A stretch of 64,000 bases of DNA, taken from assembly GCA_020851235.1 (NCBI GenBank), contig JADZDD010000011.1, positions 62,001 to 126,000 of the forward strand, given 5' to 3'. Under the pieces are notes generated by a model that saw nothing but the letters and a program-made list of their open reading frames with translations, was not told the DNA's origin and ran no database searches. This DNA is from Burkholderiales bacterium (GTDB lineage Bacteria > Pseudomonadota > Gammaproteobacteria > Burkholderiales > Casimicrobiaceae). Shown piece after piece: positions 29,524 to 38,912 of this stretch (positions are counted from its first letter, which is position 1; the number at the start of each line of letters is the position of its first letter). The position numbers were made by a program, and so were the translations under genes.

Positions 29524-30456
29524 CTAGCCGAGTTCGGCAGTGAGTTGCGGCACGATCTGGAACAGGTCGCCGACCAGACCATAGTCGGCGATCGCAAAGA
29601 TCGGCGCTTCCGGGTCCTTGTTGATCGCGACGATCACCTTGCTGTCCTTCATCCCGGCAAGGTGCTGGATCGCGCCCGAGATCCCGACGGCGACGTACAG
29701 ATCGGGAGCGACGATCTTGCCGGTCTGGCCGACCTGGTAGTCGTTGGGCACGTACCCCGCGTCGACCGCCGCGCGCGATGCGCCGAGCGCCGCATTGAGC
29801 TTGTCGGCAAGCGCTTCGAGTAGCTTGAAGTTCTCGCCGCTGCCCATCCCGCGCCCGCCCGAGACGACGACGCGCGCACTGGTGAGCTCGGGCCGCTCCG
29901 ACTTCGTGAGCTCCTGTCCCGTGACCTTCGACCGACCGGCGTCGGGGGCGGCGGCAACCGTCTCGACCGGCGCGCTGCCGCCGGCAGCCGCGGCATCGAA
30001 TGCGGTCGTGCGCACCGTGACGACCTTGACCGCGTCCTTCGACTGCACGGTGGCAAAGGCGTTACCGGCGTAGATCGGCCGCACGAAGGTGTCCGGCGTC
30101 TCGATTGCCGTGATGTCGCTCACCTGCGCGACGTCGAGCTTGGCCGCGATCCGCGGGGCGACGCTCTTGCCGAAACCGGTCGCTGCCGCGACGACGTGCG
30201 TGTAGCCGCCGGGAAGGAGCGTCAAGGCCGTCGCCGCGACGCTCTCTGCCGTGGGCGAGGCAAGATGCGGCGCATCGGCGAGGAGAACCTTCGCCACGCC
30301 GGCGAGCGCCGCCGCCTGCGCCGCGGCGGCCTGCGCCGCGCTGCCCGCCACCAGCACGTGCACGTCGCCTCCGAGCCTTGCCGCGGCGCCGACCGCGTGC
30401 GCGGTCGCCGACTTCAACGCGGCGTTGTCGTGCTCTGCAATCACGAGAATCGTCAT
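29524..30456 (-). CDS. etfA: Electron transfer flavoprotein alpha subunit
   Basis: A 310-residue ETF alpha subunit. The C-terminal FAD domain is typical: [14 protein letters not shown], then [35 protein letters not shown], and [19 protein letters not shown]. With EtfB it shuttles electrons from acyl-CoA dehydrogenases to ETF-QO. It starts 9 bp after etfB ends, in the order etfB-etfA-acyl-CoA dehydrogenase. Confidence 0.97.
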
Positions 30457-30465
30457 GGGGTGCTC

Positions 30466-31218
30466 CTAGGCGATGACCTTGGCTTCGGTGCGCAGCTTGG
30501 CGACCAGCTCCTTCACGTCGGCCACCTTGCCGCCGCCCTGGCGCTTGGGCGGCTCGACGACCTTGAGCGTCGCGAGCCTGGGTGCGACGTCCACACCCAG
30601 CACAGCGGGCGTGGTCGTCGCGAGCGGCTTCTTCTTCGCCTTCATGATGTTCGGCAGCGTGGCATAGCGCGGCTCGTTCAGTCTGAGGTCGGTCGTGATG
30701 ATCGCCGGCAGCGTCACCTCGACGGTCTCGAGCCCGCCGTCGACCTCGCGCTTGACCGTCGCCTTCCCCTCACCGATGTCGACCTTCGAGGCAAACGTCG
30801 CCTGCGGCCAGTCGAGGAGTGCGGCGAGCATCTGCCCCGTCTGGTTCGCATCGTCATCGATCGCCTGCTTGCCCAGGATGACGAGTCCGGGTGACTCCTG
30901 GGCCACGATCGCCTGCAGGAGCTTCGCGACCGCGAGCGGCTGCAAGTCGACGTCGGTATCCACCAGGATCGCGCGGTCCGCCCCCAGGGCGAGCGCGGTG
31001 CGCAATGTCTCCTGGCAGGCTGCCACGCCGCAGGAAACTGCGACAATCTCGGTGGCGTGGCCCTTCTCCTTGAGCCGTACCGCCTCCTCGACCGCAATTT
31101 CGTCGAAGGGATTCATCGACATCTTGACGTTGGCGGTATCCACGCCACTGCCATCGGGCTTGACGCGAACCTTGACGTTGTAATCGACGACACGCTTGAC
31201 GGGAACGAGTATCTTCAT
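30466..31218 (-). CDS. etfB: Electron transfer flavoprotein beta subunit
   Basis: A 250-residue ETF beta subunit. It opens with [17 protein letters not shown] and contains [16 protein letters not shown] and [24 protein letters not shown], the AMP-binding signature. The ATG at 31218 is the classical start. The same frame is open far upstream through the divergent fabZ-like gene, which is an artefact. It heads the etfBA-acyl-CoA dehydrogenase operon, with a -10 element about 30 bp upstream. Confidence 0.97.
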
Positions 31219-31320: not shown

Positions 31321-31806
31321 ATGAACGATCGAGATCAAGCCATGCGTGAGACGACCGGCGCTCTGGCGGCGCAGGACATCAGCGAGATCCTGCGCCACAT
31401 TCCGCACCGCTACCCTTTCCTCCTCATCGACCGCATGGAAGCGTGCGAGCCCAACCGATGGGTGCGCGTGACCAAGAACATCACCGCGGGCGAGTGGTTC
31501 TTCAACGACGATCGCGGCCATCGCGTGATGCCGCAACTGCTCGTGGTCGAGGCCCTCGCGCAGGCGGCGGGAGTGTTGTGCCATCACTCGGGGCTCATGA
31601 GCGAGTCCGGGGCCTCGCTCGTGCTGCTCGCCGGCATCGACGATTTCGAGGTGCTGGGCGACGCCGGACCGGGCGACGTCCTCACGCTCGAATGCACGCT
31701 CCTGCGCACGCTGCGCGGCGTGGCCAAGCTCGAGGGGCGGGCCTGCGTCGCCGAGCGGCCGATTGCGCGGGCGACGCTGATCGCGAGCATGCCGGGCGGC
31801 GCCTGA
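31321..31806 (+). CDS. FabZ-like 3-hydroxyacyl-ACP dehydratase (hot-dog)
   Basis: A 161-residue hot-dog protein resembling FabZ. The catalytic His lies in [18 protein letters not shown] and the catalytic Glu in [16 protein letters not shown]. Both are retained, but the usual Pro-Gly before the helix is Pro-Gln and the surrounding loop is changed. It would dehydrate 3-hydroxyacyl-ACP or a related thioester. The housekeeping fabZ normally lies with lpxD-lpxA after bamA, so this looks like a second, specialised copy. An alpha/beta hydrolase follows after 21 bp, and the DSF-synthase operon comes next on the same strand. An in-frame ATG at 31342 is an alternative start. Confidence 0.82.
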
Positions 31807-31827
31807 CGGGGCGGTCACGCGTCGCCC

Positions 31828-32706
31828 GTGGCCGAGGCCCCTGCACGCGAGGCCGCCGCCCGCTTCCGTGGCCTCGACGGCACCGAACTGGGGGCGCTTT
31901 GGTCTCTGCCCGCGGCCGGGCATCCCGCCGACCGCGTCGTCGTCATCGCCGGCGGTGCCGGGATCGCGGCGGCGTACTACCGCAACCTTGCGGCAGCGCT
32001 GGCGCGGCACGGCCTGCCCGTGCTGACGTTCGACTATCGGGGTGTGGGCCGCTCGCGGACCGCGGGACCCGACGCGCTGAGCGCCGGCGTGTTCACCTGG
32101 GGTCACGACGACTTGGGCGGCGCGCTGGCGCACGCCCGGGCGCGCCATCCCGACGCCGAACTGACCGTCGTGACGCACAGCTTCGCCGCCGCGATCCTCG
32201 GTGCCGCCCCGGATGCCGAGCGCATCACGCGTGCGGTGTTCCTGGCCCCGCACACCGGCTACTGGGGGGATTACGCGAAACGCTGGCGGGTTCCGCTCTA
32301 CCTCGCGTGGCACGTCGTGATGCCGCTCGTCACGCGTGGCGTCGGGCACTTTCCCGGACGGCGGCTCGGCCTTGGCATCGACCTGCCGCGGGGCGTGGCG
32401 CTCGAATGGGCCGGCCGGCGCCAGCGCGCGCTGCCGGCCGGGGCGCGCTACCGCGCCTGGCAGGACGCGCTCACGCGCTACGATCGTGTCGCGGCCGAGA
32501 CGCTCGTCATGGCGGTGACCGACGATGCCTTCGCGCCGCCTGCGGCGGCGCGTCACCTCGTCGCGCTCTATCCCAACCTGCGCGCGCGCTTCAGCGATGT
32601 GACGCCATCGGCCGTGGGCGCCCGGCGCGTCGGACACATCGGCTTTCTGCGCCGAAGCACCGGGCCCTACTTCTGGCGTCGCATCGCCGCGTGGATCACC
32701 CGCTAA
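31828..32706 (+). CDS. Alpha/beta hydrolase with atypical nucleophile elbow
   Basis: A 292-residue protein resembling the predicted hydrolases of COG4757. Features are an oxyanion-type AGGAG segment near residue 41, [10 protein letters not shown] at 69-77, and [15 protein letters not shown]. The elbow reads T-H-S-F-A around Ser118 instead of Gly-His-Ser-x-Gly, which is unusual for the fold. A candidate acid lies in VTDDAFAPP and a candidate His in VGHIGF. It may be a thioesterase or esterase with altered geometry, or be catalytically weak. The start is a GTG at 31828, 21 bp after the FabZ-like gene. Confidence 0.8.
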
Positions 32707-32807
32707 CCACCGCCGGCCGCCACGTCCGGCGCGCGCGATCGCCGCCCGCGTGGCGTGGCGCGACCGCGACGCCCGTCACACCGGGGCGGGGTGAGCGGCG
32801 CCGTCAT

Positions 32808-32837
32808 TTGCCTCCGATTCGATCGCGCCGGTAAAGT
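32808..32837 (+). promoter_or_regulatory. Predicted sigma-70 promoter of the rpfF operon
   Basis: TTGCCT at 32808-32813 and TAAAGT at 32832-32837 are separated by 18 bp. Transcription would begin near 32844, giving a leader of about 80 nt before the rpfF ATG at 32924. The 217-bp gap after the hydrolase gene is the only sizeable break on this strand, so rpfF-ketosynthase-ACP probably has its own promoter. No binding site for a known regulator was recognised. Confidence 0.5.
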
Positions 32838-32923
32838 ATCCGTGTCGTGTGCACTACAAACCGGATGATGCCTCCCCGACGAGGCGTCACCTCACCCTTC
32901 CATCGTCGATAGTGGATTCCGCC

Positions 32924-33895
32924 ATGACGCATCTCGTCGCCGTAAGCACTGCCAACCGAAACGACACTGCCGCGAGCATCCTTGCGCGCCCCGGCGGTGC
33001 GATCGACTTCACGTTCTCGGGTGAGCTCGAGGGCCACTACCATCCGGCCGATCAGGTCCTGTGGACGCGCAGCACCCCCCGCGGCATTCCCTGCTTCTCG
33101 CTCGACCTGCTGCGTGCGATGACGCAATCGAGTCGGGTCATTGAGGATTGCTTCCGCGACCCGTTGCAGCGGCCACTGCGCTACATCATCCTGCGTTCCG
33201 GCGTGCCGGGCGTGTTCTCGGTGGGTGGGGACCTGGGCTACTTCCACAAGCTCATCGTCGCGCAGGATCGCACACGGCTCACCGAATATGCGCACGCGGC
33301 CGTCGAGGCGATCCACCGCAACTACGTCGGGCACGGCGTGCCCGGAGCCACGACGATCGCGTTGCTCGAAGGCGACGCGCTCGGCGGCGGCTTCGAGCAG
33401 GCACTGTCGTGCGACATCGTCATCGCGGAGCGACACGTGAAGGCCGCATTCCCCGAGGTCCTCTTCGACATGTTCCCGGGCATGGGCGGGCTGTCGTTCC
33501 TCGCCCGACGCACGAATCGCCGGATCGCCAACGAGCTCACCCGCAGCGGCCGCGCGTACACCGCGCTCGAACTCTTCGACCTGGGCGTCGTCGATGCGGT
33601 CGTCGACACCGGCGCGGGCGTCGGCGCAGCGCAGGCGATCGTACGGCAGCGCACGCACCAGCCGCAGGCACATCGGGCGATGGACGCGGTCGATCGCATG
33701 CTGCGCCCGGTGACGCTCGCCGAGTTGCACGACGTCGTCGCGCTGTGGGTCGATGCCGCGCTGCGGCTTTCCGAGCGCGGCCGGCAATGGATGCGACGCC
33801 TGCACGCGCAGCAGCTGGCCCAGTTCGTTACGCCCGCGAGCCACACCGTCGCCGTTGCGCCGCGCGCGGTGTCGAGCCGGCAAAACCGGGCATGA
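32924..33895 (+). CDS. rpfF: RpfF-type DSF synthase (crotonase family)
   Basis: A 323-residue crotonase-fold enzyme closely resembling RpfF, which converts 3-hydroxyacyl-ACP to free cis-2-unsaturated fatty acid signals (DSF/BDSF) by dehydration plus thioester hydrolysis. Diagnostic stretches are GVPGVFSVGGDL (95-104), EGDALGGGFEQALS (149-162) and FPEVLFDMFPGMGGLSF (176-192). Glu158 and Glu178 are 20 residues apart, matching the two catalytic glutamates (141 and 161) of Xanthomonas RpfF. The ATG at 32924 is preferred to an upstream GTG at 32849, which begins almost at the predicted transcription start. Its stop overlaps the ketosynthase ATG. It is convergent with an rpfC-like gene two genes on. 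An enoyl-CoA hydratase of other function is the alternative, but the RpfF-specific segments argue against it. Confidence 0.88.
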   Translation: MTHLVAVSTANRNDTAASILARPGGAIDFTFSGELEGHYHPADQVLWTRSTPRGIPCFSLDLLRAMTQSSRVIEDCFRDPLQRPLRYIILRSGVPGVFSVGGDLGYFHKLIVAQDRTRLTEYAHAAVEAIHRNYVGHGVPGATTIALLEGDALGGGFEQALSCDIVIAERHVKAAFPEVLFDMFPGMGGLSFLARRTNRRIANELTRSGRAYTALELFDLGVVDAVVDTGAGVGAAQAIVRQRTHQPQAHRAMDAVDRMLRPVTLAELHDVVALWVDAALRLSERGRQWMRRLHAQQLAQFVTPASHTVAVAPRAVSSRQNRA

Positions 33896-35151
33896 GCAGC
33901 GCACCGCCAGCGCGACGCCGCGTCGCGATCACGGGGCTTGGCGCCATCTGTCCCTTGGGCGCCACCCCCGATGCCGTCTGGTCCGAACTCGTCGCCGGTC
34001 GCTCCGCCGTCGACGCGGTCGCATTTACCAATCCCGCCACCGACGTCCCGCTGGTGATCCCCGCGGCCGCCATTCCCGAGACGTGGCACAAGCCGCTCGA
34101 CCGGGACGCGAGCTTCATGACCGACAAGTTCACGCGCCTCGCCCTCATGGCCAGCGAGGACGCGATCGCCGACGCGGGCCTCGACTTCACCCGCGAGGAT
34201 CGCGGGCGCTGTGGGACGAGCACGGCGAGCTGCATGAGCGGGATCACCGAAACCGACGTGGCATTCCGCGCGCTCTACGTCGACAAGCGCCCCAAGGTGC
34301 ATCCGTACACGCTCCTGCGCACCATGGCGAACGCGCCCGCTTTCTTCCTGTCGATGCGCCACGAGCTCACCGGGCCCTCGCTGTCGACCGAGGCCGCATG
34401 CTCGTCGTCGTCGGTGGCCATTGGCGAGGCGGCACGGCAGATCCAGCACGGCTACGCCGACGTGATGATCGCGGGCGGTGCCGAAACGCTGCTCACATAC
34501 GCGGCGGTCAACTGCTGGAAGTCGGCGCAACTGCTGGCGGCGCTGCACGCGAATCCGGCGAAGAGCTGCCGCCCGTTCGACGCCACGCGAGCCGGGACCG
34601 CGCTCGGCGAGGGCGCGATCTACGTCGTCCTCGAGGAGTGGGAGCGCGCCCGCGCCCGCGGCGCGCGCATCCACGCCGAGCTCGTGGGCTACGCGTGCAC
34701 CACCGATTGCTTTCACCCGACGCAGCCGTCGGTGGAAGGACAGCGCCTGCCGATGAGTCGCGCGCTGCATGACGCCGGCCTGCCCCCTTCTTCTGTAGGC
34801 TACATTCATGCGCACGGTACCGGGACGCGCGCCAACGACACGGTCGAGACGCAGGCGATCAAGGCGGTCCTGGGCGACCACGCGAGGCGCGTTGCGATCT
34901 CGTCGTCGAAGGGCGCGATCGGTCATCTGGCGGGCGCGGCCGGCGCGTTCGGGTTCCTCGTGTGCGTCAAGGCGCTGCAAACGGCGACCGTGCCGCCGAC
35001 GGCCAACCTCGACACGCCCGACCCGGAATGCGATCTCGACTACGTGCCCAACGTCGGGCGCGAAGCACGTGGTCTTGGCGTTGCCATGAGCAACGCCTTC
35101 GGTTTTGGCGGCACGGCGGCGTCCTTGATCGTCGCGGTGCCGCAGGCATGA
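33892..35151 (+). CDS. FabF-like beta-ketoacyl-ACP synthase in the DSF locus
   Basis: A 419-residue thiolase-fold condensing enzyme. The Cys-His-His triad is complete: Cys170 in STEAACSSSSVA, His308 in HAHGTGTRAND and His345 in SSKGAIGHLAGAAG. The C-terminus AMSNAFGFGGTAAS is typical of FabF-type KAS II enzymes. It would elongate acyl-ACP with malonyl-ACP. It overlaps rpfF by ATGA and its own stop overlaps the ACP gene by ATGA, so the three are co-translated. This is clearly not the housekeeping fabF, which normally sits in a fabHDG-acpP-fabF cluster. No chain-length-factor partner is present. Confidence 0.92.
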   Translation: MSSAPPARRRVAITGLGAICPLGATPDAVWSELVAGRSAVDAVAFTNPATDVPLVIPAAAIPETWHKPLDRDASFMTDKFTRLALMASEDAIADAGLDFTREDRGRCGTSTASCMSGITETDVAFRALYVDKRPKVHPYTLLRTMANAPAFFLSMRHELTGPSLSTEAACSSSSVAIGEAARQIQHGYADVMIAGGAETLLTYAAVNCWKSAQLLAALHANPAKSCRPFDATRAGTALGEGAIYVVLEEWERARARGARIHAELVGYACTTDCFHPTQPSVEGQRLPMSRALHDAGLPPSSVGYIHAHGTGTRANDTVETQAIKAVLGDHARRVAISSSKGAIGHLAGAAGAFGFLVCVKALQTATVPPTANLDTPDPECDLDYVPNVGREARGLGVAMSNAFGFGGTAASLIVAVPQA

Positions 35152-35438
35152 CTCAACTTTCAACCAGGACGATGGCCATGGCACTGCGGGAACGAGACAT
35201 CTACGAGGTCGTGCGGGAATTCATGCGGGACCACGGCCGCGATCCGGCGACGATCACCCCCGAGGCGAACCTGCGCGATGTCGGCATCGACTCGCTCGGT
35301 GCGGTCGAACTCGCGTTTCGCTTCGAGGATCGCTTCGGCGTCAGCATCCCCATGGAGGCGTTCCCGCTGACGACGATCGGCGACGCCGTCCGCTTCGTGA
35401 CGACGCTCGCGGACCTGCCCGGCGCACCGGCCGACTAG
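35148..35438 (+). CDS. Acyl carrier protein in the DSF locus
   Basis: A 96-residue carrier protein. The phosphopantetheine Ser49 is in the canonical GIDSLGAVELAFRFEDRFGVSI, followed by an acidic helix as in type II ACPs. The ATG at 35148 overlaps the ketosynthase stop; an internal ATG at 35172, preceded by AGGA, would trim eight residues. It sits immediately downstream of its likely partner ketosynthase and RpfF, whose known substrates are acyl-ACPs. The gene ends 52 bp before the convergent rpfC-like gene, and no terminator hairpin was found in that gap. Confidence 0.92.
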   Translation: MTQLSTRTMAMALRERDIYEVVREFMRDHGRDPATITPEANLRDVGIDSLGAVELAFRFEDRFGVSIPMEAFPLTTIGDAVRFVTTLADLPGAPAD

Positions 35439-35490
35439 CCGCGGGCGGCACGGAGCGCGCCGGTCGCCGAATCGACGCGCCGAGGGTCGG

Positions 35491-38046
35491 TCAGCGCGAC
35501 CCGCTCGGCGTCACGTGCGACGTCTGCGCGCGTACCGCCGACTTCGTGAGCGTGTACGTCGAGGTCAGTTCGGCAAGCGCGGTGGCCGCCTCGGCTGCGG
35601 GCCACGGGGTGGCGTGCTGGCGCATGTGGCGCACGCTCTCACAGAGCGCACTCGCGCCGATCGACGCCGCGGTGCCCTCGATCTTGTGCAGCGCTTCGCG
35701 CACGGCGCGGCCGTCGTCGCGCTCGATCGCGCCACGCAGGTCGGCCATGGCCGCTTCGAGGTCGTCGAATGCCGCCTGCAGGTACTGGTCGAGGAAGCGG
35801 CGGTCGTGGCGCGACAGGCGCGCCAGCGCGTCGAGCCGCTCGCCGTCGACCAGGCTGACACCGGCCGCGCCGGGGGCCGCGCCATCGTCGCCCCTGCGCG
35901 GTGCGGAGATCGGGGCCCGCGTCTCGGATGCCGTCGCCCGGGCGTCGTCCGCCTCGCGCGCCGCGCCCGCCCAGCGATCGATCATGCCGAGCAGCGCTGC
36001 CGCCGTCACGGGCTTGGTGAGGAAGTCGTTGGCGCCGGCCGCGAGGCTCTCCTCGCGCGCGGCCGCGGTCGCGTCCGCCGAAAAGACGATGATCGGCAGC
36101 TTGTGCGCGCCGCCCACCTCGCCGGCCCGGTACAGCTTGATCACGTCGGTACCCGTCATGTCCGGCATGTTGAGGTCGACGATCGCGAGGTCGATGTCGC
36201 CGTCGCTCATGCGATCGAAGGCCTCGTCACCCCGCGCGACCATGCTGACGGTATGCCCGGCATCCTGCAGGATCCGGGCGAGCAGCAGCCGGTTGCTGCG
36301 GTTGTCGTCCGCGAGCAGCACGTGCAACGCCCGCGTCACGGGCGGGATCGCGCCCTCGGATTGCGCACTCGACAGGTCGATGCGGTTGCCGAGGGCGGCG
36401 AGGTGGTGTTCCCACTCGCCGACACGCAGCGTGGGCGCGAAGACGCCCGCGGCGCCGGCATTGAGCAGCGCCGATTCCTGCTGCGCGCTGCACGTCCCGC
36501 TCACGACGAACCACGGGCAGGTGGTGCCAAGACCCTCGGGCGACATCGCCTGCGCGCAGAGCGCGGCGTCGGCAGCAGGCATCACGAGCAGCGCGGCGTA
36601 AAAGCCGCCGGGATCGAATCCCGGTTGCGCGGTGGGCAGCAGGGCATGGCGTCGCACGCCCATGCCCAGCGCCGTGAGGTGCGCGCCGACGACGGCGACG
36701 TCCGGACTGTCCGGTCCGACCAGGAGAACCTCGCGCTCGCGCAACGGCGGCAGCGTGGCGTCGGCATGATCGGCAAGCGGCAACTCGACCCAGAAGGTCG
36801 AGCCGCGCTCGGGTGCGCTGTGAACGCCGATGCTTCCCCCCATGAGGCGCACGAGATCGGCTGCGATCGAGGCGCCCAGCCCGGTGCCGCCGTACTTGCG
36901 CGTGGCCGAGCTGTCCACCTGGGCGAAGCGGTCGAACAACGTCTCCTGCGCGGCCAGTGGAATGCCGATGCCGGTGTCGACGACCTCGAAGCGCACGCCG
37001 GCTGGCACATTGGCCACGCGCAGCGACACGCTGCCCCGCGGCGTGAACTTGAGCGCGTTGTTGATGAGGTTGCCGAGCACGTGCTGCAGATGCTCCCAAT
37101 CGCCGTACACCGTGCCCGGCACCGCGCGATCGATCTCGAGACGCCACGCGAGTTTCTTCGCGGTCGCCTGCGGCCGCACCAGCAGCGAAACCTGCCATAG
37201 GAAGTAGCGGAGGTTGAACAGCCGCGGATGGCTGCGTTCGGCGCCGGCCTCGAGCTTGCTCGACCGCAGCACGGCGTCGACCGACGACTTGAGCGTCGCG
37301 ATTGCGCTGCCGAGCGATGCCACGAGCTCGCTCTCGTCGGGGGTGAGGCGCCGGCGGCGCAGCAACTCGTAGACCGCGAAAACGCCGGTGAGCGGCGTGC
37401 GCAGTTCGTGCGAGACATTGGCCACGAAGCGTGTCTTGACGCGCAGCAGTTCGAGCGCCGCGTCCTTCTGCGCGGTCAGCCGCGACAGCAGGAGGAGGAC
37501 GTACAGGGGGATGCACGCGAGCACCAGCAGATAGCCGATGCCGATCGCACGGTGCTCCTGCCAGTACGGCACGAGCAGCAGCAGCAGGCCAAAGCACGCG
37601 AGCGACAGCGTGTAGGCGACGAGCAGGTAGCGCGGACCGTAGCGAAAGCCGTTGCCCACCGTCACCCAAAGATAGATGCCGACCAGCGGAACGCCGAGCT
37701 CGCCGGCGCCCCAAAGTCCGATGGTCATCGGCAGGAGATCCGCCGCGATGCCGAAGTAGCGCATGTGCGCGGGGCGCTCGCTGTGGTGCCGGAACCACCA
37801 CATCATCCACAGGCCCGCCAGCACCACGAGGCTCGTGGCGACGACCGCCAGCCGCAGCCCGGCCGTGAACCCGGTCTCGTGCATCGCGCCGGCGTAGAGC
37901 GCGTAGGCGAGCACGCCACCGCCCAATGCGGTACGCAGGAAAGCCTGCTCGAAGGCGACGTCACGCGTGGCGGCTTCGTGAAATCCGAGCCGCTTGCGCG
38001 CCGCGGCGGCAATGCGGCGCATCCGGGTGTGCACGCGGTCGAACAC
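35491..38046 (-). CDS. rpfC: RpfC-type hybrid sensor histidine kinase (DSF receptor candidate)
   Basis: An 851-residue hybrid kinase. After a short cytoplasmic N-terminus come about five or six membrane segments (38-188). These include YLWVTVGNGFRYGPRYL at 125-141, which closely resembles the RpfC sensor of Xanthomonas. Then follow HisKA with His213 (NVSHELRTPL), HATPase (313-424, NLINNALKF and GTGLGAS), a receiver-like domain without the acceptor Asp (437-552), a true receiver with Asp624 (574-690) and a C-terminal HPt with His787. RpfC senses DSF and in Xanthomonas signals to the HD-GYP protein RpfG. The start is GTG with GGAG 5 nt upstream. It faces the rpfF operon tail to tail. Confidence 0.88.
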   Translation of the reverse strand: MFDRVHTRMRRIAAAARKRLGFHEAATRDVAFEQAFLRTALGGGVLAYALYAGAMHETGFTAGLRLAVVATSLVVLAGLWMMWWFRHHSERPAHMRYFGIAADLLPMTIGLWGAGELGVPLVGIYLWVTVGNGFRYGPRYLLVAYTLSLACFGLLLLLVPYWQEHRAIGIGYLLVLACIPLYVLLLLSRLTAQKDAALELLRVKTRFVANVSHELRTPLTGVFAVYELLRRRRLTPDESELVASLGSAIATLKSSVDAVLRSSKLEAGAERSHPRLFNLRYFLWQVSLLVRPQATAKKLAWRLEIDRAVPGTVYGDWEHLQHVLGNLINNALKFTPRGSVSLRVANVPAGVRFEVVDTGIGIPLAAQETLFDRFAQVDSSATRKYGGTGLGASIAADLVRLMGGSIGVHSAPERGSTFWVELPLADHADATLPPLREREVLLVGPDSPDVAVVGAHLTALGMGVRRHALLPTAQPGFDPGGFYAALLVMPAADAALCAQAMSPEGLGTTCPWFVVSGTCSAQQESALLNAGAAGVFAPTLRVGEWEHHLAALGNRIDLSSAQSEGAIPPVTRALHVLLADDNRSNRLLLARILQDAGHTVSMVARGDEAFDRMSDGDIDLAIVDLNMPDMTGTDVIKLYRAGEVGGAHKLPIIVFSADATAAAREESLAAGANDFLTKPVTAAALLGMIDRWAGAAREADDARATASETRAPISAPRRGDDGAAPGAAGVSLVDGERLDALARLSRHDRRFLDQYLQAAFDDLEAAMADLRGAIERDDGRAVREALHKIEGTAASIGASALCESVRHMRQHATPWPAAEAATALAELTSTYTLTKSAVRAQTSHVTPSGSR

Positions 38047-38192: not shown

Positions 38193-38912
38193 CTACAGTT
38201 GCACCCACTGTCCCCCGCGCAGTCCTTCCACCGGCCGGAACGACGCCTTGTACGCCATCTTGCGGCTCTCGGCAATCCAGTAGCCGAGGTACAGATAGGA
38301 CAGGCCCAGCTCGCGGCAGCGGGCGATCTGCCAGAGGATGTTGTAGGTGCCGAGACTCGCGCCCGGGACGTCGGGCTCGAAGAACGTGTAGACCGACGAG
38401 AGCCCGTCGACCAGACGATCGACGAGGCTCACCATGCGCAGCTCGTGCCCTTCGCGGAATTCGAACAGGTCGGTGTCGACGTTGCTGTGCAGGAGGAAGT
38501 GCTGGTATTGCTCGCGGCTGTCGTGGTCCATGCCGCCGCCCGGATGCCGCTCGCGCTGGTAGCGCAGGTACAGCGCGTAATGCTCGGCATCGTAGGCGAG
38601 CTCGCGCCGCGTCACGCGCAGGCCCGCGCCCCGGCGCGCAACCTTGCGCTGCGTCCGGTTCGCCTCGAAGGCGGCCACCGGGATGCGCACCGGCACGCAC
38701 GCGCGGCAATGATCGCAGTACGGCCGATAGGTGAACGCGCCGCTGCGCCGGAAGCCCAAGCGGACGAGTTCGCTGTACACCCGCGTGTCGATGACGTGAC
38801 TGGGGGTCGCGACCTGCGAGCGCGCTGCCCGATCGGGGAGGTAGCTGCAGGGATAAGGCGCGGTCGCGTAGAACTGCAGCGACGCGAGCGGGAGATCGTT
38901 GAGCTTGCTCAC
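38193..38912 (-). CDS. bpt: Aspartate/glutamate leucyltransferase (Bpt, ATE family)
   Basis: Bpt transfers Leu from leucyl-tRNA to proteins starting with acidic residues, marking them for ClpS-ClpAP in the bacterial N-degron pathway. The 239-residue protein shows the N-terminal Cys cluster (YPCSYLPDR and [14 protein letters not shown]) and the C-terminal core with [27 protein letters not shown] and FRPVEGL. The start GTG overlaps the aat stop (GTGA), so the two transferases are co-translated, the usual arrangement. The rpfC-like gene follows 146 bp downstream with its own ribosome-binding site. Confidence 0.95.

Follow-up and report, generated by a model that had tools for sequence, protein, structure and literature searches.

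A putative diffusible signal factor locus with its own ketosynthase and acyl carrier protein in a Casimicrobiaceae bacterium

Synthesis of diffusible signal factor (DSF) is described as the general fatty-acid cycle plus the enzyme RpfF (PMC13220807; PMC5941067). Why, then, should an rpfF gene lie beside a ketosynthase (KS) gene and an acyl carrier protein (ACP) gene of its own? The question is raised by a 64,000-nucleotide stretch of DNA from a Burkholderiales bacterium of the Casimicrobiaceae (the window; G000:C11:62001-126000 in a genome, G000, of 3.93 Mb and 41 contigs). An earlier note on this DNA had described rpfF, KS and ACP genes overlapping by ATGA and facing an RpfC-type hybrid kinase, and had proposed a private assembly line for the signal. 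That observation is borne out by the sequence and by the order of Pfam domains, and the interpretation is partly supported: it is plausible, and stands on firmer ground than before. On balance, we lean slightly toward a DSF-type signalling locus that carries its own acyl-building module and makes a non-standard member of the DSF family. In the open literature, judged by titles and the beginnings of abstracts and with subscription papers mostly outside that scope, we found no description of rpfF loci with their own KS and ACP.

The identity of the crotonase is central to this reading. Its best relatives of solved structure are 7zq7 and Xanthomonas RpfF (3m6m/3m6n; E 5e-48 for 3m6m), then 5fus and 6dgn (170 to 145 bits), after which the next solved crotonase reaches only 57 bits. 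E158 and E178, numbered from the ATG at 32924, are invariant in all 17 aligned rows, window included. Their counterparts in the 3m6m chain are positions 157 and 177, which, allowing for a tag offset, we take to be the catalytic pair E141 and E161 of RpfF. In a rooted tree without seven long or odd rows (L293, L211, L298, L297, L254, L135 and L144), a 61-row ingroup containing the RpfF fragments of Xanthomonas campestris pv. campestris (Xcc) and Burkholderia cenocepacia splits from eight other genome crotonases with support 100; the window protein falls inside this RpfF-like family, as the earlier note had held, at a position within the ingroup that is unsure. It could alternatively be a thioester-metabolizing enoyl-CoA hydratase/isomerase, with the kinase acting as a general lipid sensor. 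The PRK08788 model indeed fits it better (289.6 bits, above the cut-off of 177) than the RpfF equivalog model NF053515 (194.9 bits, below the cut-off of 550), and the neighboring genes include etfA and, as read, one for an acyl-CoA dehydrogenase. Given the tree, the two glutamates and the fact that 148 of the 206 loci with enough flank have a window-kinase homologue no more than 4.5 kb from rpfF, we regard this alternative as very unlikely and presume the crotonase to be a DSF-type cis-2-enoyl synthase. One scan of viral contigs confirmed no relative of it.

The KS and ACP form a second set, since the genome has its own acpP-fabF pair elsewhere (G000:C6:49472-51046). The FabF encoded there scores 643.5 bits against the fabF model, versus 398 for the window KS, and the two proteins share 39% identity. 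The window KS, the sole KS on contig C11 at E<=1e-30, keeps the residues aligned with the FabF Cys-His-His, to which we assign their usual catalytic roles. The ACP has the GIDSL serine, and its helix II carries three acidic and two basic residues, versus six and none in the genome's AcpP. A tree of 47 KSs (23 rpfF-linked, 13 housekeeping FabF and 11 others from 13 genomes), built after 12 duplicates were dropped and two cut-off sequences swapped for full copies, unites the housekeeping FabFs in one clade (100/99). Apart from it stand a 16-row clade with the window KS, comprising 15 rpfF-linked KSs and one other (99/97), and a 7-row clade that is entirely rpfF-linked (100/100). Thus, 22 of the 23 linked KSs fall within two clades in which almost every sampled row is rpfF-linked; the KS of locus L229 stands alone.

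The association also recurs beyond the genus. The crotonase was searched against 399 genomes of the order (72 matched) and 369 of the class (67 matched), and alignment A1 against 398 genomes of the phylum (63 matched), the own genome being counted each time; 30 of the 64 places in the phylum search were taken as loci with flanks of about 1.5 kb, and four more were fetched. A scan of named GTDB contigs contributed the best 80 of 136 confirmed matches. Outside the genus, nothing matched by the crotonase itself scores above 240 bits. A minimum score of 150 bits and length of 180 residues gave 299 rpfF loci, or 249 once repeats were removed, and within 5 kb of rpfF these hold both KS and ACP in 22 cases (window included), KS only in four and ACP only in three. 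By kinship, the pair occurs in 2 of 21 genus, family and own loci, 2 of 68 from the order (2 of the 62 flanked on each side by 1.3 kb), 7 of 66 from the class (5 of 54), a row to which the phylum draw contributed three loci, and 0 of 26 from the phylum (0 of 19). The named scan yielded 11 of 68 (8 of 56), a share that is no rate because that scan used peptide patterns of the window clade. Mapped on a 252-row RpfF tree, presence of the pair requires 11 changes, at least six of them forced by starred branches, which may be gains or losses. The arrangement varies: ACP-KS is divergent from rpfF in L107, L115, L175, L293 and L297-L299, codirectional with it (ACP-KS-rpfF) in L253, and past the kinase in L291 and L294.

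This recurrence exceeds what KS density would produce by chance. The nine order and class genomes positive for KS and ACP contain 30 KS matches at E<=1e-30 in about 33.1 Mb, 21 of them not linked to rpfF. From this density, 0.93 KS neighbors would be expected in the 134 order and class loci, versus nine observed (Poisson P 6e-7) or eight without L215 (P 6e-6); the density comes from positive genomes under a threshold stricter than that of the locus scan, although all nine linked KSs pass the stricter one too. As a control, 20 regions of 20 kb, picked arbitrarily from as many rpfF-bearing genomes, held no KS, a weak comparison, as about 0.25 was expected. L215 is weakened as clean support, because its KS and ACP open a large cluster that, from its open reading frames (ORFs), reads as aryl-polyene-like. 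A further large cluster that resembles the aryl-polyene type, likewise judged from ORFs, starts some 2.2 kb away from rpfF and its kinase gene in genome G377 (L359:4740-17000).

Several of the distant loci carry additional genes. In L107, L112, L115, L125, L135, L145, L169, L360 and L361, several of them in metagenome-assembled genomes of Gammaproteobacteria, rpfF lies with an ACP, a KS and a gene of 347-370 amino acids, which is a CMAS-type methyltransferase in the four that were scanned (L112, L115, L360 and L361). Domain scans also identified a PlsC-like acyltransferase (L112, L115) and a GGDEF-EAL protein (L115, L169). Methyltransferases of this type beside a KS suggest modified chains, so that methylated or cyclopropane DSF-like signals are possible. 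L253 places a 508-amino-acid radical SAM protein, identified by scan, beside ACP-KS-rpfF (L253:6751-8277), and by eye the start of a protein in L171 (L171:1583-3112) resembles it; a tailoring role is possible for both.

Within the family, an rpfF-like gene (E<=1e-20) is present in 23 of 64 genomes and the KS-type rpfF in three, all among the 22 genomes of the genus (G000, G009 and G015); three genus genomes have no rpfF match. The three crotonases score 773.6, 359.4 and 335.4 bits, respectively, and those of other family genomes at most 207.4. Among 29 loci with short flanks, in which KS neighbors were sought (L009-L037), the window KS is matched only in these three genomes; most other genus loci combine an arginyl-tRNA-protein transferase (ATE) gene, rpfF and a kinase homologue with no KS, and several of those with longer flanks add etf, dehydratase or hydrolase genes. 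G009 holds all six genes of the window locus in other orientations: rpfF and KS overlap, the ACP gene is convergent with that of the KS, and those for kinase, hydrolase and dehydratase follow. In G015, too, rpfF and KS overlap. Synteny holds in part: rpfF with KS and ACP recurs in other lineages, but gene order is not fixed, as G009 and G015 show. G000 and G009 each have a single rpfF match and G015 a second one; it thus looks as though the window form took the place of the ordinary gene in the first two and joined it in G015. The G009 and G015 assemblies are incomplete (93% and 85%). A KS near the rpfFs of L041 and L042 was rejected as rpfF-linked, being part of another KS-KS cluster about 5 kb away. 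In L041, an ordinary genus genome, this KS-KS-FabA-like cluster with an ACP-like gene (L041:12418-17999) begins about 3.4 kb from rpfF and includes a 413-amino-acid protein that fuses a 4'-phosphopantetheinyl transferase domain to a lipid A acyltransferase domain.

A more careful RpfF tree of 68 rows (65 hand-picked loci and three references) recovers the three window-form synthases as a clade (100/100) on a stem of 1.07 changes per site. This clade groups with 16 rows of a Burkholderiales RpfF-like clade (100/98), a 38-member version of which has a GGDEF-EAL homologue within 3 kb in 38 of 38 loci; no GGDEF-EAL gene was found near the window-clade rpfFs. Both domain-scanned members of the Burkholderiales clade (L043:9486-11453 and L044:6786-8759) encode MerR-PAS-GGDEF-EAL proteins, and across these and the 36 further loci the MerR part aligned in 37 of 38; the architecture is suggestive of a receptor of the RpfR kind equipped to bind DNA. 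A firm claim that the window RpfF descends from this group was dropped: an alternative that unites the window clade with one clade of the genus costs 26.6 log units and is not rejected by the approximately unbiased (AU) test (p 0.113), and a rooted quick tree with distant outgroups leaves the node of the window clade unresolved.

The sensor has diverged along with the synthase. The input region of the window kinase aligns with those of other rpfF-linked kinases, and a quick tree joins it to the G009 kinase (100) on a stem of 1.72 changes per site, placing this clade among genus kinases with an unstarred set support of 94. Xanthomonas RpfC uses an N-terminal segment to bind DSF, and R15, D17, S18, E19 and Q22 of that segment are essential, each of the substitutions R15A, D17A, S18A, E19A and Q22A having reduced DSF-dependent traits (PMC5391125). 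Many related kinases show R-x-D-S-E-x-x-Q at matching spacing just before the first membrane helix (RPDSEHGQ in L302), the positions being anchored by this spacing and by L302 rather than by the Xcc protein itself. The window kinase reads T-R-D-V-A-F-E-Q, keeping D17 and Q22 and replacing R15, S18 and E19 with T, V and A, and the G009 kinase has D, N, A, D and Q at the five positions. Position 19 is readable in 117 loci (116 from a profile, the window added by hand); it is other than Glu in 5 of 13 loci with KS and ACP versus 1 of 104 without the pair, with a Fisher P of 4e-5 that ignores kinship. The five represent about three lineages, and only E19 tracks the pair. The kinase alignment omitted L229, L297 and L167 and the motif profile L048, L175 and L050. 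Met occupies the Gln22 position in 26 of the 104 kinases of loci with neither KS nor ACP (two unreadable; e.g., L106, L114, L117 and L098), and the four alphaproteobacterial Met22 kinases that were aligned keep the rest of the motif.

These changes bear on a simpler explanation, in which the KS and ACP merely boost or insulate the supply of ordinary DSF or Burkholderia DSF (BDSF) precursors and the signal is standard. Such an explanation is in keeping with a FabF-like KS whose Cys-His-His positions are intact and with the Xanthomonas DSF precursors, which are C12-13 3-hydroxyacyl-ACPs out of general synthesis (PMC5941067). The long stems of synthase and kinase, and a kinase without residues needed for DSF in Xanthomonas, hint instead at a changed ligand, and we consider a standard signal rather improbable. 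The E19 change as proof of a new ligand was dropped, as the Fisher value ignores relatedness and the relatedness-aware comparison described below is powerless.

Several observations weigh against a private assembly line, the strongest being G015 and the KS relatives that lie away from rpfF. The rpfF-KS pair of G015 (BOKS01000022.1) sits beside etf genes and has neither an ACP nor a kinase as neighbor, and this genome also holds an ordinary rpfF elsewhere (L037); in G009, the ACP lies on the strand opposite to the KS. When alignment A3, whose rows include the window and G783 KSs, was run over the 369 class genomes with at most four candidates scored per genome, eight KSs exceeded 545 bits, of which only three (window, G506 and G783) are near rpfF. 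In G454 (on a short contig), G599, G753 and G517, the KS lies with an ACP and no rpfF beside it; in G674, rpfF and an adjacent ACP occupy one site and the KS another, beside a GGDEF-EAL gene. The KS clade is therefore not specific to rpfF, and its exclusivity was rejected. To these points can be added the missed RpfF equivalog cut-off, the lack of any visible ketoreductase among the locus genes and the behavior of the kinase motif. KS-free genus kinases (L041, L042, L047, L049 and L051) also lack the D17-S18 pair (ADRPELEQ in L041), and position 18, which is Ser or Thr in only part of the other kinases, frequently holds Thr or something else in place of Ser. For E19, a comparison that allows for relatedness had three usable pairs, lacked power and was not significant.

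With similar KS-ACP pairs found away from rpfF, the KS and ACP could instead constitute a separate small lipid pathway, a signal-controlled output encoded beside the signalling genes that does not feed RpfF. The aryl-polyene-like setting of the L215 pair, the variable orientation and distance of the genes and the ACP-less G015 locus would all fit such an arrangement. The overlap of rpfF and KS in three genomes would not, nor would the concentration of linked KSs in two clades; moreover, apart from L215, no exporter or second KS was seen beside KS and ACP in the listed loci, whose ORFs were read and mostly not domain-scanned. Taken together, we judge a separate output pathway unlikely, though a serious contender.

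Genes of the locus were called from a Pfam domain scan, reading frames and direct reading of the sequence (Table 1). Both ATGA overlaps named in the earlier note are present (rpfF/KS at 33892-33895 and KS/ACP at 35148-35151), but the second stands only as a plausible start, unproven, given the alternative at 35172, which has AGGA just upstream and may be the true ACP start. The crotonase probably starts at ATG 32924 rather than GTG 32849, because G009 and G015 show Met in that alignment column. The kinase is convergent with rpfF-KS-ACP, and AAGGAG precedes its GTG start. The span given in the earlier note took in the dehydratase and hydrolase, which its text passed over although both are recurrent neighbors of rpfF in the genus, the dehydratase in L037, L038, L041, L047 and L056 and the hydrolase in L015, L038, L041, L042 and L047 (L038 and L041 domain-scanned). 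The etf genes, of which we take the upstream partner of etfA to be etfB, also mark the flank of the rpfF locus in several genus genomes. Guanine-cytosine content, overall and at third codon positions, equals that of neighboring genes, and composition thus shows no sign of the recent foreign origin that we had considered.

Table 1. Genes of the window locus and its flanks (window coordinates)
Feature	Position	Strand	Basis or remark
FabZ/FabA-like 3-hydroxyacyl-ACP dehydratase	31321..31806	+	Pfam FabA, 54.8 bits
Alpha/beta hydrolase, HSF motif	31828..32706	+	Pfam Hydrolase_4
RpfF-like crotonase, presumed cis-2-enoyl fatty acid synthase	32924..33895 (alternative GTG 32849)	+	Pfam ECH_1
FabF-like KS, secondary	33892..35151	+	Pfam ketoacyl-synt N and C
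ACP	35148..35438 (alternative start 35172)	+	PP-binding, 50.9 bits; GIDSL motif
RpfC-type hybrid kinase (membrane input region, HisKA, HATPase_c, REC, Hpt)	38046..35491	-	Pfam order
etfA and, upstream, putative etfB	29524..31218	-	EtfA models, synteny, reading frames; outside the system
ATE family gene	38193..38912	-	Pfam ATE_N, ATE_C; flanking marker in genus

How might such a locus work? What a private KS and ACP would most likely alter is the identity of the chain delivered to RpfF. The KS would extend an acyl chain on the dedicated ACP; as no ketoreductase is seen in the locus, reduction would fall to the cell's shared FabG, and the linked dehydratase may help elongation. The RpfF-like crotonase would then dehydrate the 3-hydroxyacyl thioester to a cis-2-enoyl chain and free the acid, a DSF-family signal whose chain would be unlike the standard one. 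We infer that the facing kinase, its sensor changed too, would detect this signal and hand phosphate on to a REC-HD-GYP regulator of the RpfG type whose gene lies elsewhere, upon which cyclic-di-GMP would fall. A candidate is the RpfG-like protein at G000:C10:63403-64431, which is 51% identical to the REC-HD-GYP protein of L361.

One close parallel is the Xanthomonas RpfF/RpfC/RpfG system, which likewise combines a synthase with both glutamates, a convergent RpfC-type kinase and a REC-HD-GYP regulator. The window differs from it in its own KS and ACP, in the kinase residues at R15, S18 and E19, in having its RpfG-like gene on another contig and in a synthase from another branch of the tree. 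The BDSF system of Burkholderia and its relatives, RpfF with the PAS-GGDEF-EAL protein RpfR, is echoed in the grouping of the window clade with GGDEF-EAL-linked synthases in the careful tree; the window, however, has a kinase and no GGDEF-EAL gene nearby, that placement is insecure, and B. cenocepacia RpfF itself lies elsewhere in the tree than these neighbors. Aryl-polyene and other secondary type II clusters also combine a stand-alone FabF-like KS with an ACP. Aryl-polyene clusters carry paired KSs, whereas the window has a single one, with no exporter or ketoreductase seen beside it.

More broadly, KS and ACP modules may repeatedly have joined DSF-type synthases in Proteobacteria to give distinct signals, methylated or cyclopropanated by CMAS-type enzymes in some Gammaproteobacteria, with kinase motifs changed to match, amounting to private, custom fatty-acid languages; we offer this wider picture tentatively, at somewhat less than an even chance. 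A condensing enzyme and carrier of their own would let bacteria choose the chain of their signal and keep it apart from membrane lipids, and such loci, with synthase, KS, ACP and sensor in one testable set, would help to address how DSF-type kinases tell signals apart.

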